DNA of 64,000 bases. Source: Aeoliella mucimassa. GTDB taxonomy: Bacteria > Planctomycetota > Planctomycetia > Pirellulales > Lacipirellulaceae. This document shows, one piece after another, positions 3,115 through 61,259 of the stretch; position 1 is the stretch's first letter; each line of letters starts with the position of its first letter. Location of the stretch: NCBI RefSeq assembly GCF_007748035.1, contig NZ_CP036278.1:4960001-5024000 (forward strand), read 5' to 3'. Below the pieces are notes generated by a model. The model saw only the letters and a program-made list of their open reading frames with translations, was not told the origin of the DNA and did not search any database. The position numbers and the translations under genes are program-made.

Positions 3115-4497
3115 TTAGTGCAGCGGGGCACCATCTTCGAGTCCGAGACGCTTCATCTTCTTGTAAAGCGTGGTTCGGTTGATGCCCAGAGTGTCGGCGG
3201 TTGCGTTGCGATTCCAGCCATTCGACTCGAGCACTTGCAGAATGATCTGCCGCTCGGGCCCTTCGAGGGCTTCTTTCAGCGTTTGGCCAATGGTGAAGCG
3301 GGCCGAGCTGTTCGTGTTGCCTCCGGTGCGTAGCTCCAGCGGCAGGTCGTTCACTTCGATCTGCGGCCCCTTGCCCAACAACACCGCCCGTTCGACGACA
3401 TTCTGTAGTTCGCGAACGTTGCCCGGCCAGGTATGGTTTTGCAGGCAGGTGATCGCATCGTCGCTGAAGCCAGCAACGTCGCGGCCGACGTCTTCGAGTG
3501 TTTCTTTCAGGAAACGTTCGGCCAGCAACGGTACGTCGCTCGCCCGTTCGCGAAGCGAAGGGAGTTCGATGTTGATCACATTGATGCGGTAGTACAGATC
3601 CTGGCGGAAGCTACCATCGGCGACGTTCTTCGCCAGGTCTTCGTTGGTTGCGAGGATCACGCGGACATCGACGTTGTAGGTCTTCGATCCGCCGACCGCT
3701 TCGAACGCCAGCTCTTGAAGTACCCGCAGCAGCTTGACCTGCATCGCAGGGCTGGCGGTGCCGATTTCGTCGAGGAAGATCGTACCGCCATCGGCTTGCA
3801 GAAACTTACCAGTCTTGTCGGTCGTGGCCCCGGTGAATGCACCAGCGACGTGACCAAACAGTTCGCTTTCCAGCAGATTCTCTGGCAGCGCACCGCAGGC
3901 AACTTCCACGAAGGGGCCCTTCGCGCGGCCGCTACGGCGGTGAATCGCCCGGGCGATCATGCTCTTACCAGTGCCACTCTCGCCAGTCACCAGTACGGTA
4001 GCGCGGGTATCCGCGACGCTCTCGATCATTTCGTACACACGCAGCATGCGGGGATCTTGTCCCACGATGTTGCCCATGCCGAAGTGCTTGTCGAGCTCGG
4101 CTTTGAGTTGGGTATTCTCGTCGAGCACCTTGCGTTGCGACAACGCCCGCTCGAGAGCCATCAACAGTTCTTCGTCGATCAATGGCTTGGTGAGAAAGTC
4201 GAACGCACCTGCACGAATGGCATCGACAGCCATGTCGCCGGTGCCGTAGCCGGTCATCATAAGCACCTGAGTGCTGGGCCAGCGTTGGATGGCTTGCTTC
4301 AGAAAATCGAATCCGTCGTCCTGTCCCAGCCGCACGTCGACCAGCGCCAAATCGTAGGTGGTTTGCTGGCAGGCCTTTACGGCATCGTCGCAACCGCGTG
4401 CATTATCGACTTCATACCCCTGGCTACAGAGCCAGTCGGTCATCGACTCGAGCACTTGGTAGTCGTCGTCAACGAGCAGTAACTTGGCGTTCGACAT
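3115..4497 (-). CDS. Sigma54-dependent response regulator, NtrC type
   Basis: 460 residues from the ATG at 4497. Domains are a receiver (about 1-120, acidic pocket D10-D12, phospho-acceptor D54 in LALVDVRLG), a sigma54 AAA+ activator domain (Walker A GESGTGKS near 171-178, sigma54-contact loop GAFTGA near 218-223, then the arginine-finger region) and a C-terminal Fis-type helix-turn-helix ending with TADTLGINRTTLYKKMKRLGL. It would activate sigma54 promoters after phosphorylation. No histidine kinase is adjacent, so it is an orphan here. Targets are unknown. Confidence 0.93.
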   Translation of the reverse strand: MSNAKLLLVDDDYQVLESMTDWLCSQGYEVDNARGCDDAVKACQQTTYDLALVDVRLGQDDGFDFLKQAIQRWPSTQVLMMTGYGTGDMAVDAIRAGAFDFLTKPLIDEELLMALERALSQRKVLDENTQLKAELDKHFGMGNIVGQDPRMLRVYEMIESVADTRATVLVTGESGTGKSMIARAIHRRSGRAKGPFVEVACGALPENLLESELFGHVAGAFTGATTDKTGKFLQADGGTIFLDEIGTASPAMQVKLLRVLQELAFEAVGGSKTYNVDVRVILATNEDLAKNVADGSFRQDLYYRINVINIELPSLRERASDVPLLAERFLKETLEDVGRDVAGFSDDAITCLQNHTWPGNVRELQNVVERAVLLGKGPQIEVNDLPLELRTGGNTNSSARFTIGQTLKEALEGPERQIILQVLESNGWNRNATADTLGINRTTLYKKMKRLGLEDGAPLH

Positions 4498-4854
4498 GGT
4501 GACAAGCGCTCTAGGCGCGACAATGATTAACGAAAACAACAACGGGGGCGACGCAAAAGCCGGTAGCCCGAGCCACAGAAATATCTAGGTTACGCGTTGC
4601 CAAGGGTCAACAAACCATGCCTATTTGAGGCACATTGGCAGGAATGATTCCTGGCTGCCACGCACCAGCCGGTGCAACCCGCACAGGCGGATTCACTGGT
4701 TGCGACCGGTGCATCGTATCCATTTAGTCCCTTGGACTGGCAACGGTTGCGGGTTCCGCCCTGCCGGGGCGGGTTCCCACTTCACGGGTAAAAGGTAGGA
4801 TAGAAAAGGTCGAACAACGAACCGACGCCCAGCGAAACAGAAAAAAGGAATCGA
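4498..4854. other. Intergenic region between divergent ntrC-type and pfk-type genes
   Basis: 357 bases holding both promoters. An interrupted palindrome lies at 4639-4653 (CAGGAA-TGA-TTCCTG) and a GC hairpin at 4755-4771 (CCGCCC-loop-GGGCGG). I found no convincing sigma54 or sigma70 pair, and no RNA gene. Confidence 0.4.
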
Positions 4855-5985
4855 ATGCCAACCGATACATGTATTGGGGTACTCACAAGCGGTGGTGACT
4901 GCCCAGGTTTGAATGCTGCTATCCGCGGCCTTGGTAAGGCGGCGCTCGATCACTACAACATGTCCGTCATTGGATTTCGCGATGGTTTTCGCGGATTGGT
5001 CCAGGACCGCACGCTTCGCATTACCAGCGATCAACTCTCGGGCATTCTGACCGACGGCGGCACCATCCTTGGTACCAGCCGCGACAAGCCCCATAAGATG
5101 CCGATTGGCGACCGTACCGAAGACATGACCGACGTGATCGTCGAGAACTATCACCGTCATGGGCTTGAAGCAGTCGTCTGCATCGGCGGTGGCGGAACCC
5201 AGAAGAATGCCATGCGGTTGGTGGAAGCGGGGCTCAACGTGGTGACGTTGCCCAAGACCATCGACAACGACATCGCCGAGACCGACGTCTCGTTCGGTTT
5301 CGATACTGCTCTGCAGATTGCCACTGAAGCAATCGACCGCCTGCATAGCACCGCGACGAGTCATCATCGGGTGATCGTGGTCGAACTCATGGGGCATCGC
5401 GCCGGGTGGTTGGCCCTGGGGGCTGGCATCGCAGGCGGGGCCGATGTGATTCTGATTCCAGAAATCCCCTACGATCCCAACCTCGTTACCAAAGCCATCA
5501 AACGACGCGCCCGTCGCGGCCATCGCTTCAGCATCGTCGCCGTGGCCGAGGGAGCGGTGACCATCGAGCAGCAACAGCAGATCGACACACTGCTGCAGGA
5601 AAAGAAGGACGCGCAGGAGAAAGACGAAAAGAAAGCCGCATCCGACGCCCTCAAGAAGTTTCATGAAGACCACGTCGACCACACGCTGCTGCTCACTGGC
5701 CAACTGGAGGAGAGCACCGGCATGGAATCGCGACTCACGATCCTTGGCCACCTGCAACGGGGTGGCACCCCTTCGGCTGCCGACCGGTTGCTCGCAACCA
5801 AGCTCGGCACCGCCTGTGCCCGACTGCTCGCCGATCGGAAATATGGCTACATGGTTGCCTCGCAGGGCGATTCCACCGCTGCGGTGCCACTCGAGAAGGT
5901 CGCTGGTAACAAGAAGCTGGTACCGACCGATCACCCGTGGGTCGAAGCGGCCCGCCGCGTCGGAACCTGCATGGGCGACGAGTAG
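4855..5985 (+). CDS. 6-phosphofructokinase family enzyme with an atypical nucleotide site
   Basis: 376 residues. It would phosphorylate fructose 6-phosphate using ATP or pyrophosphate in the cytoplasm. Visible family motifs are the N-terminal [20 protein letters not shown], the catalytic PKTIDNDI (D137, D139), the MGHRAGW substrate loop and LGHLQRGG. The phosphoryl-donor loop reads IGGGGTQ at 110-116, with G113 where classic ATP enzymes have the Mg-binding Asp (GGDGS). K134 precedes TIDND, a residue found in pyrophosphate enzymes and in some ATP enzymes. Donor specificity is therefore uncertain. A charged, Lys/Glu-rich stretch at about 245-265 looks like a surface insertion. Confidence 0.9.
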
Positions 5986-59561: not shown

Positions 59562-59590
59562 TTGACATGAACACCCGTTCACACTACACT
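59562..59590 (+). promoter_or_regulatory. Near-consensus sigma70 promoter of the Y-polymerase gene
   Basis: TTGACA (59562-59567), a 17-base spacer, then TACACT (59585-59590). The ATG at 59598 is only seven bases past the -10 hexamer, where transcription would start, and no Shine-Dalgarno is present. The message is predicted to be leaderless. Confidence 0.8.
59568..59581 (+). promoter_or_regulatory. SOS (LexA-type) operator
   Basis: TGAACACCCGTTCA is a perfect 5-bp inverted repeat (TGAAC-N4-GTTCA). It contains GAAC-N4-GTTC, the form known for Bacillus-type LexA boxes. It fills most of the spacer between the -35 and -10 hexamers, where a repressor would block RNA polymerase. Confidence 0.75.
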
Positions 59591-59597
59591 CCGCCAC

Positions 59598-60779
59598 ATG
59601 ATAGGTCATGTGGATGCCGATTGCTTTTACGTCTCTGCCGAACGGGTGCGGTTTCCGCATTTGCGAGGCATGCCGGTCGGGGTATTGGGTAACCACGGGG
59701 CCTGCATCATTGCCAAAAGCTACGAAATGAAAGCTGCCGGCGTGGCGACCGGCGTGCCGATCTGGGAGGCCATTACCCTTTGCCCCCAGGCGGTGTACGT
59801 CAAACGCGACTTCGTATGGTACGAGTCGGTAAGTCGCAAGATGCTATCGGTTGTGCGTAAGATCAGCCCGCAGGTCGAGTTTTACTCGATCGACGAGCAG
59901 TTTTTCGTCGCCCCTGACGCCACGATCGGCTCACGACTGCAGCGCGACATCCTGCACCAGGTCGGCGTACCGGTCAGCGTGGGGATTGCGCCGACCAAGA
60001 CGCTCGCCAAGCTGATTTCCGACTCGTCCAAACCCTTCGGCTGCGGCGTAGTACTAACCGAGGATCAGCGTCGCGAGCTGCTGCACGAGCGACCGATTAC
60101 CGACGTTACCGGCATCGCCAAACGTAGCGCCAAGCGGCTCGCCCAGTATGGCATTCATACGTGCGAGCAGTTTGCTGCTGCCGATCGGGCGTTTATTCGC
60201 TGGTTGCTTACCAAGCGCGGCGAAGACCTCTGGTGGGAACTCAATGGCACCCCCGTGCAGCCCGTGCAAACCACTCGCCCAACGCATAAGTTCGTGTCGC
60301 GCGGCGGCAGCATTGGCAAAGCGAGTCGCGATCCCCAGCGCGTGCAGGCGTTCGTCGTTCGCAACGTCGAGCGACTGGTCGAAGCACTCACCCACTACGA
60401 ATTGTGTTGCGATCAGCTCATCCTGTCGCTGCTGTTTCGCGACGCTCCCGAGCGTTCGGAGCGGTGCAGCCTGCTCGGCAGCCGAGGCGACTTCGAAACC
60501 CTGCTCCAGGCAGCCCTGCACATGCTTCCCCGTGCATGGCAGCCCGACACCGCGTTTGTGCATTACATGCACGTGATCGCCAGCGGGCTGCGTCCCGCCG
60601 GGCGGCGGCAACGAAGTTTGTTCGAACAATCGCAATTATCCGACATCAAGCGCGAGATCAATCATAGAATGGGGCGGTTCGTTCTGCGTAGCGGGGCGAC
60701 GCTGCCGCTGGTCGACGTGTACGGCGACGCAGCCAACAATTACGACATCTGCGACATTTACGGCAAAAGTTGTTTCTGA
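59598..60779 (+). CDS. Y-family translesion DNA polymerase (UmuC/DinB-like)
   Basis: 393 residues. Catalytic motifs are HVDADCFYVSAERV (D6) and YSIDEQFF (D99, E100), with the palm/fingers segment GACIIAKSYEMKAAGVATGVP and the helix-hairpin region ITDVTGIAKRSAKRLAQYGI. It would copy past damaged bases. The second motif has Gln after DE where most enzymes have Ala or Phe. The G-N-H-G-A-C-I-I-A segment is closer to UmuC (N-N-D-G-C-V-I-A) than to DinB. It is under an SOS-type box and precedes a SRAP-like gene by 12 bases. Confidence 0.9.
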   Translation: MIGHVDADCFYVSAERVRFPHLRGMPVGVLGNHGACIIAKSYEMKAAGVATGVPIWEAITLCPQAVYVKRDFVWYESVSRKMLSVVRKISPQVEFYSIDEQFFVAPDATIGSRLQRDILHQVGVPVSVGIAPTKTLAKLISDSSKPFGCGVVLTEDQRRELLHERPITDVTGIAKRSAKRLAQYGIHTCEQFAAADRAFIRWLLTKRGEDLWWELNGTPVQPVQTTRPTHKFVSRGGSIGKASRDPQRVQAFVVRNVERLVEALTHYELCCDQLILSLLFRDAPERSERCSLLGSRGDFETLLQAALHMLPRAWQPDTAFVHYMHVIASGLRPAGRRQRSLFEQSQLSDIKREINHRMGRFVLRSGATLPLVDVYGDAANNYDICDIYGKSCF

Positions 60780-60791
60780 GGTGCAAGTCTC

Positions 60792-61259
60792 ATGTGCAAA
60801 GGCATTTCCATTCTCCGCGCTCGCCTGCGTCAGGAGCTATACGAAGAGTTCGAACTCGCCAGCCGCGTGGTGTCGCGCGGTGGAGATCCTGAATTGCATT
60901 TCATGTACACCGATCGGGTGGTGCAACTGCCGGTGATGCACGATGGCCAGATGCAGATTTACGAGTGGGGCAACCGCGGCAACAAGGAGTCGCGACTTCC
61001 CCGCACCGGTTGGTGCCGTATCGAAAGCCTGGAAGCTGGCAAATGGCGCTGGCTCAAGCCCGAGAAGGTGATGATTCCAGCCGACTTCGGCCTGGAGAAA
61101 GGCGTGTGGTTTCAAATCACCGAAGGACTCGACGGAGTCGTCGTGCACGACGAGCAAGAGCGGCCGCACGTCTACATGCTTACCCAACAAGCGAGCCACT
61201 ACTACGAGACCATGACCAAACACGATCGCATGCCGCTGTTGGTAAATCAGGAGATTTAA
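60792..61259 (+). CDS. Reduced SRAP (HMCES/YedK)-like protein
   Basis: 155 residues, starting 12 bases after the polymerase stop with a GAGGTG Shine-Dalgarno that overlaps that stop. Cys2 directly follows Met1, as in SRAP proteins, which expose Cys2 to bond with abasic DNA. Later parts fit SRAP in order: N64 (in NRGNKES), the IPADFGLEK segment with E102 (SRAP IPADGFYEW) and KHDRMPLLV with H144 (SRAP HDRMP). It is far shorter than the usual 200-230 residues. The assignment rests on these motifs and on the SOS polymerase neighbour; overall similarity is low. Confidence 0.7.
   Translation: MCKGISILRARLRQELYEEFELASRVVSRGGDPELHFMYTDRVVQLPVMHDGQMQIYEWGNRGNKESRLPRTGWCRIESLEAGKWRWLKPEKVMIPADFGLEKGVWFQITEGLDGVVVHDEQERPHVYMLTQQASHYYETMTKHDRMPLLVNQEI

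Follow-up and report, generated by a model that had tools for sequence, protein, structure and literature searches.

In the planctomycete Aeoliella mucimassa, a gene for a 155-residue protein follows directly on that of a Y-family DNA polymerase, an arrangement that raises the question of what the small protein is and what it might do for the polymerase. The locus was examined within a window of 64,000 nucleotides (contig NZ_CP036278.1, positions 4,960,001 to 5,024,000 of the forward strand), which is the whole stretch of DNA that was analyzed; the original prediction had read the gene as a reduced relative of the SRAP family (PF02586; E. coli YedK, human HMCES). We find that its product is genuinely an SRAP-fold protein, short and divergent, whose gene accompanies one clade of SOS-type polymerases almost without exception. 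The reading that best explains these properties, to which we give about an even chance, is that the shortened SRAP-fold protein is a dedicated accessory subunit of the upstream polymerase and may form a covalent adduct with abasic (AP) sites.

A short gene under purifying selection follows a Y-family polymerase

The 155-residue open reading frame begins 12 bases after the polymerase stop codon, both genes lying on the + strand; coordinates and spacing are as first reported (Table 1). In all seven pairs of SRAP-like genes tested, dN fell below dS, the ratio dS/dN being about seven-fold or more with some pairs near saturation (the pair from genomes G025 and G034 gave dN 0.022 and dS 0.88), which indicates that the gene is real and under purifying selection. 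The protein had also been described as about a third shorter than its relatives, and this agrees with the 220-260 residues that the domain description in PMC3765255 gives for SRAP.

The upstream gene product matches the IMS family (E 3e-35) and phrog_1268 (E 7.9e-66). Because its acidic residues D6, D8, D99 and E100 are invariant in 25 homologues, the polymerase is probably an active enzyme.

Table 1. Features of the polymerase and SRAP-like gene pair, in window positions
Feature	Position	Strand	Basis or remark
Sigma-70-like promoter, TTGACA-17-TACACT	59562..59590	+	10/12 matches
LexA-type operator TGAACACCCGTTCA, within the 17-bp promoter spacer	59568..59581	+	putative LexA binding
Y-family (UmuC-like) DNA polymerase gene, 393 aa	59598..60779	+	family matches, 25 homologues
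Conserved polymerase C-terminal tail (residues 374-393), candidate docking peptide	60717..60776	+	25 homologues; predicted disordered
Polymerase stop codon overlapping Shine-Dalgarno-like GAGGTG (60778-60783) ahead of the SRAP-like gene	60777..60783	+	sequence reading
Short SRAP-fold protein gene, 155 aa, ATG start	60792..61259	+	ORF reading, fold model, alignment

The protein is predicted to adopt an SRAP fold

The original prediction had proposed a search with the PF02586 model; that model does not recognize the protein, no Pfam match appearing at E-values up to 10 and none in NCBIfam at E-values up to 1. A PHROG search gave a single chance-level match (E 0.32), and phmmer against the sequences of solved structures found no SRAP, again with one chance-level match (E 0.48). 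An alignment of 27 homologues (A2), run by hmmsearch against solved structures, returned beta-lactamase inhibitory protein II three times (E 4e-4 to 5e-4) and no SRAP; we discounted these matches because they are summed from repeats, no single stretch being significant. In profile-profile comparison with 20 canonical SRAPs, a separate alignment (A1) gave an hhalign match with a probability of 81% and E 1.3e-5, and A2 gave a weak local match (probability 41%).

Structure prediction points to the same family. An AlphaFold2 model computed from 27 aligned homologues reached a mean pLDDT of 93.1 and a pTM of 0.89. When it was compared with solved structures by Foldseek, ranks 1-5 were all SRAP chains (human HMCES twice, BT_1218 twice and Bordetella Q7WLM8) at probability 1.00 and modest E-values of 3.8e-4 to 3.7e-3, the remaining rows among the matches listed having probabilities of 0.16 or less. 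With VIA-align, 14 entries among the matches listed, YedK with abasic DNA included, gave Z-scores of 9.2-11.1 and rmsd values of 3.1-4.0 over 126-143 residues; a Z of at least 2 was attained by 20 of the 998 aligned chains, all 20 of them above 8. We take 2f20 and 2aeg to be SRAP proteins. The structures 1zn6 and 2icu are handled as SRAP in the relevant passages of PMC3765255. Superposition places model residue 2 on YedK residue 2 and model residues 153-154 on YedK residues 169-170, so that nothing in the short protein corresponds to the C-terminal part of YedK.

On this modeled structure the 155-residue protein has the SRAP fold, and the resemblance goes beyond chance; the predicted likeness to YedK and HMCES is thus borne out by the Foldseek ranks and the VIA-align scores. 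That the protein merely happens to resemble SRAP and is unrelated to it, which the failure of the Pfam, NCBIfam and PHROG searches might suggest, seems to us scarcely credible, since SRAP structures alone top the fold comparison and the model already contradicts it.

Cys2 and an acidic residue persist while other SRAP residues vary

Residue counts were taken from A2, which leaves out the full-length planctomycete members L060, L061 and L065; L060 and L061 are identical, so the rows are not all independent. Cys2 is found in 27/27 sequences of A2 and in 29 of the 30 full-length planctomycete members, the sole exception being L065, which begins Met-Phe-Gly and has lost the cysteine yet adjoins the polymerase gene. 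Position 102 is acidic throughout (22 Glu and 5 Asp in A2; 30/30 full-length planctomycete members). R146 (26/27) and P148 (27/27) are similarly constant in A2, and position 144, a histidine followed by DRMP in the Aeoliella protein, holds His in 15 of 27 sequences, Tyr in 7, Ser in 3, and Asn and Arg in one each. Nearer the middle of the protein, Asn occupies position 61 in 23/27 and position 64 in 11/27, R76 is Arg in 11/27 and E78 is Glu in 19/27. Of four distinct plasmid-borne members, those of Pseudomonas and Methylophaga thalassica have Cys2 and those of M. pinxianii and Nitrosomonas do not.

These counts divide the set of catalytic candidates in the original prediction, which had named C2, N64, E102 and an H144 opening an HDRMP segment. 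All four residues stand where it had placed them; C2 and the acid at 102 are conserved among homologues as it had anticipated, whereas N64 is not and H144 gives way to other residues in 12 of 27 sequences. Nor does N64 correspond to the SRAP active-site asparagine, which belongs to an N-A-R-x-E motif invariant in canonical planctomycete SRAPs (20/20). Two of three MAFFT modes align C75-R76-x-E78 of the short family with A-R-x-E, leaving a gap at the canonical Asn, and place C2 on Cys2 and E102 and H144 on the canonical Glu and His; under the third mode, the central parts of the two families are aligned differently. The hhalign match with A1 likewise pairs E102 and H144 with the canonical Glu and His and leaves the C75-R76-x-E78 segment unaligned. 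The motif asparagine is therefore missing, the residue before C75-R76-x-E78 being Trp in 24, Tyr in 2 and Asn in only 1 of 27 sequences; N61 might be a stand-in for it in space. Canonical SRAPs also have an Arg at position 4, which the short form lacks.

What varies and what stays in the short family fits the kinetics reported for YedK mutants, where, in the mutant data of PMC9436759, N75A had a very modest and E105D a modest effect, H160A cost at least 10-fold and E105A caused the largest loss. Judged from the alignments, the short family appears to retain the residues that matter most in YedK, those dropped mattering less. Ring opening and DNA binding may nonetheless be weak, because the NARxE asparagine is missing, H144 and R76 vary and there is no Arg at position 4. 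Covalent abasic-site chemistry by the short form is accordingly plausible but unproven.

The presence of Cys2, E102 and H144 in the Aeoliella protein would also suit a thiol autopeptidase or damage-sensing switch, the type of function that, in its discussion of SRAP, PMC3765255 first proposed. We hold this to be very improbable for the short form: with C2 right behind M1 the protein has no N-terminal extension that could be cut off, and removal of the initiator Met from bacterial YedK did not need active-site residues in the experiments described in PMC9436759.

The gene is a near-constant partner of one polymerase clade

Full-length homologues were counted at 30 distinct planctomycete places (the window plus 14, 2 and 13 others), a tally that leaves out decayed or partial copies (L018, L021 (G026), L068-L071), a contig-cut gene in G016, and duplicates (L004 = window, L020 = L012, L022 = L007). 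At 29 of the 30 this polymerase is encoded upstream in the same orientation, the exception being genome G054, which has the gene without the polymerase; the pairing thus recurs in other genomes, as the original prediction had proposed to check. The gap between the two genes, stop codon included, is 64 nt or less in 21 of 25 cases and 104-597 nt in the other four.

Presence and absence follow the same pattern. Among 59 genomes, the polymerase (E <= 1e-60) was found in 14, that of Aeoliella included, and the SRAP-like gene also in 14, with 13 shared. In G016 the polymerase is followed by the first 19 residues of the SRAP-like protein before the contig ends, and with this partial copy counted all 14 polymerase-bearing genomes carry the gene; if G016 is counted as negative, co-occurrence still gives a Fisher p of 5e-11, for genomes that are related and not independent. 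A profile search of 392 genomes drawn from the phylum found matches in 14, again with Aeoliella included, which makes the pair rare and patchily distributed. Pairwise distances between polymerases track those between their partners (Pearson 0.88, Spearman 0.64; 24 pairs, 276 comparisons), a correlation that shared ancestry alone would also give.

The Aeoliella genome, a single contig that is 96% complete, yielded no second candidate for the partner. The window polymerase is its sole IMS match, its only S24 match is lexA itself, and searches of it for UmuD, YolD and PF02586 found nothing, which leaves the SRAP-like protein as the one candidate for a small polymerase partner. The short form is not a simple replacement for canonical SRAP, an idea that we rejected since canonical SRAP occurs in 7/14 genomes with the short form and 30/45 without it (p 0.35), and in G052 the two forms are neighbors, a canonical gene being located about 475 bp downstream of a short one.

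These distributions bear on whether the protein might be an independent AP-site shield, co-regulated with the polymerase and making no contact with it. Transcription from one promoter would by itself suffice for joint SOS induction, G054 has the gene by itself, and the tethered fusion model described below has no confident interface. Such a shield would not be expected to be tied so closely, nearly one to one, to a single polymerase clade (29/30 places; 14/14 genomes), and the short form is distributed without relation to canonical SRAP and adjoins it in G052. We consider the independent shield unlikely and favor an accessory subunit tied to the polymerase.

Two contigs of G052, L085 (C220, 3352-6146) and L086 (C174), each show the polymerase and the short gene with a canonical-type SRAP gene downstream, the canonical frame in L086 having only about 120 residues. 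A third, partial polymerase match lies in contig C207 of the same genome (10959-11837).

A probable SOS-type promoter precedes the pair

The polymerase had been described as SOS-regulated, and the LexA-type operator in its promoter, where LexA would bind, agrees with that description. The operator pattern has a mean of 0.13 occurrences in shuffles of the window; the promoter pattern, found once against a mean of 0.7 in shuffles, is weak on its own. The lexA promoter of the Aeoliella genome carries TGTACGCCCGTATA, one mismatch from TGWACN4GTWCA, just after TTGACG, and recA has a two-mismatch site only. Across 25 polymerase promoters, 15 contain an operator with at most one mismatch to a consensus drawn from these same sequences, and the remaining 10, including all five of genus g43, have two or three mismatches. 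Genome-wide, TGWACN4GTWCA occurs less often (nine places) than its reversed control (17), and most of those nine do not clearly precede SOS genes. Inferred from these sites, SOS control of the pair in its own genome is likely.

The five g43 loci (L089, L090, L091, L094 and L099) share another element, roughly ACTGTTCAGTAGTAT, upstream of the polymerase, perhaps another LexA motif. Elsewhere, at L109 (G000 4324096), an operator-like TGAACACACGTACA precedes by 24 bases a reading frame of 492 codons or more, possibly another SOS gene, whose product we presume to be a ComM/YifB-type ATPase from its appearance.

The polymerase carries a conserved tail

Besides its catalytic residues, the polymerase has a QxxLF-type motif (Q338, L341, F342), and its invariant N355, G359, R360 and F361 (25 homologues) resemble, as we take it, the RecA-NT motif; DUF4113 was not listed by a Pfam search of the polymerase. 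The protein ends in YDICDIYGKSCF, in which D386, G389, K390, C392 and F393 are invariant in the same 25 homologues. PMC6511836, in its sections on these polymerases, names the UmuC tail as a major UmuD'-binding site and proposes that the conserved tails of YqjW and UvrX bind YolD proteins; in the 2026 models described in PMC12926913, the YqjW tail does not touch YqjX. By analogy, the tail in the window polymerase is a candidate docking site for the SRAP-like protein, and no more than that. A read-through fusion of the two proteins modeled with a pTM of 0.53, residues 358-397 having pLDDT below 50, and its 5-residue tether may forbid the true pose; the model neither supports nor excludes contact.

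The conserved tail could also serve a partner that has no covalent chemistry, the SRAP fold then being a purely structural or regulatory subunit, an analogue of UmuD' or YolD that perhaps binds this tail. The missing NARxE asparagine, the variable His and R76 and the occurrence of the C2-less L065 beside a polymerase would all suit such a subunit, and SRAP-like proteins are placed among putative PolY-binding regulatory subunits in the SRAP passages of PMC12926913. A cysteine right after the start Met in 29 of 30 members, together with an acid in all 30, is hard to explain unless the N-terminus is used, and we rate the purely structural subunit as a real possibility that falls clearly short of an even chance.

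A proposed role at abasic sites

The accessory subunit with a potential for AP-site adducts, which we prefer, builds on the predicted fold and on the gene pair, the co-occurrence, the operator-like site and the conserved Cys2 and acid observed here; polymerase contact, LexA control, crosslinking and handover are steps that we infer. One SOS-type promoter would drive both genes. Removal of Met1 would make Cys2 the N-terminus, and Cys2 with acid 102 (and H144 in the Aeoliella protein) would most likely react as YedK does, forming first a Schiff base and then a thiazolidine with abasic sites or lyase products in the single-stranded template. Since the polymerase would act on the same lesion, the SRAP-like protein could hold or shield the abasic site and then hand the lesion over, SRAP crosslinks being reversible, or it could keep competing enzymes away during polymerase action. 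In doing so it would fill the place of UmuD' or YolD in other mutasomes.

A compact abasic-site tolerance unit, which the original prediction had suggested, is plausible. Its strongest form, in which the small subunit of the mutasome is itself a covalent abasic-site trap, an SRAP reduced to Cys2 and an acid that holds the lesion and releases it reversibly for bypass, we advance tentatively and think rather doubtful. Several points count against the preferred reading: an SRAP crosslink would be expected to block the polymerase, L065 lacks Cys2, G054 lacks the polymerase, and three of the four plasmid members have no annotated polymerase within 5-6 kb.

Relation to known systems

The short form shares with YedK and HMCES the predicted fold (model residues 2-153), a Cys2 that follows the initiator Met, a Glu at the position of YedK E105, the HDRMP segment, a WG motif and an association with SOS genes. 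It differs in its 155 residues, ending right after the HDRMP strand where the C-terminal part of SRAP would follow, in lacking the NARxE Asn and the Arg at position 4, in its variable family His and in being missed by the Pfam model. With Pol V (UmuC-UmuD') and YqjW/UvrX-YolD, as these are presented in the polymerase sections of PMC6511836, the locus has in common an SOS-type Y-family polymerase, a small partner gene and a conserved tail. The partner fold is SRAP here, whereas it is an SH3-type barrel in UmuD' and YqjX; a putatively reactive Cys2 replaces the N-terminal arm; and no UmuD or YolD was found in the Aeoliella genome.

The pairing of polymerase and SRAP is itself not new. SRAP was tied to mutagenic polymerases in 2013 (PMC3765255, SRAP passages), and an association of UmuC-like polymerases with SRAP-related genes was published in 2026 as a prediction (PMC12926913). 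The latter resembles the present case in joining an active UmuC-like polymerase to an SRAP-related partner gene, and its SRAP passages give no taxa, sizes or residues, so that its partner genes are likely, though not proven, to be the family described here. In the open-licence literature, covered by titles and abstract openings and by the SRAP passages of PMC11791011, we found no account of a short SRAP-like form; what is new here is the residue pattern and the reduced architecture of that form.

Human HMCES is said in PMC9436759 to inhibit mutagenic translesion synthesis. The near one-to-one tie between an SRAP-fold protein and a translesion polymerase points the other way, toward the two cooperating at a shared lesion; if the covalent-trap mutasome were real, abasic-site protection and translesion synthesis would be one machine and not competing pathways. 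The short family also offers a natural test of which SRAP active-site residues are dispensable, the Asn being missing, the His variable, and Cys2 and the acid kept, and its small size and simple gene pair make the system testable in vitro.

Plasmid-borne and decayed copies

A viral origin found no backing: a tblastn search of 50,697 phage records gave no match to the window protein or to its M. thalassica homologue, viral contigs yielded none for A1, and BFVD contained nothing at E 0.001; one apparent hit in viral contigs (L100) was discarded as false, the matched + strand lying opposite an unrelated 376-residue open reading frame. On the M. thalassica plasmid the gene order is lexA, polymerase, SRAP-like gene, with identities to the window proteins of about 26% for the polymerase and about 30% for the partner. 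Around the plasmid genes of M. pinxianii, Pseudomonas and Nitrosomonas, the 5-6 kb on either side contain no annotated polymerase.

Several copies appear to be remnants or distant paralogues. G026, which also has an intact pair, carries at L077 (2788500-2797500, at about 4130-4942) a second copy of the polymerase end and SRAP-like gene, now decayed, and C-terminal remnants of the SRAP-like gene are present at L068 (G127) and L070 (G106). Two far paralogues in G444 (L069 and L071) start Met-Cys-Asp and have seemingly lost acid 102 and the His; their fetched flanks hold no match to the window polymerase. On the Nitrosomonas plasmid (L101, 5983-6387), the homologue lies just 3' of genes for a RelE/ParE-type toxin and a DNA-binding regulator, carries Tyr where Cys2 would stand, and ends earlier at the C-terminus; it may be a copy that has decayed or been repurposed. 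In Pseudomonas, too, the SRAP-like copies are situated 3' of an Xre-family antitoxin gene.
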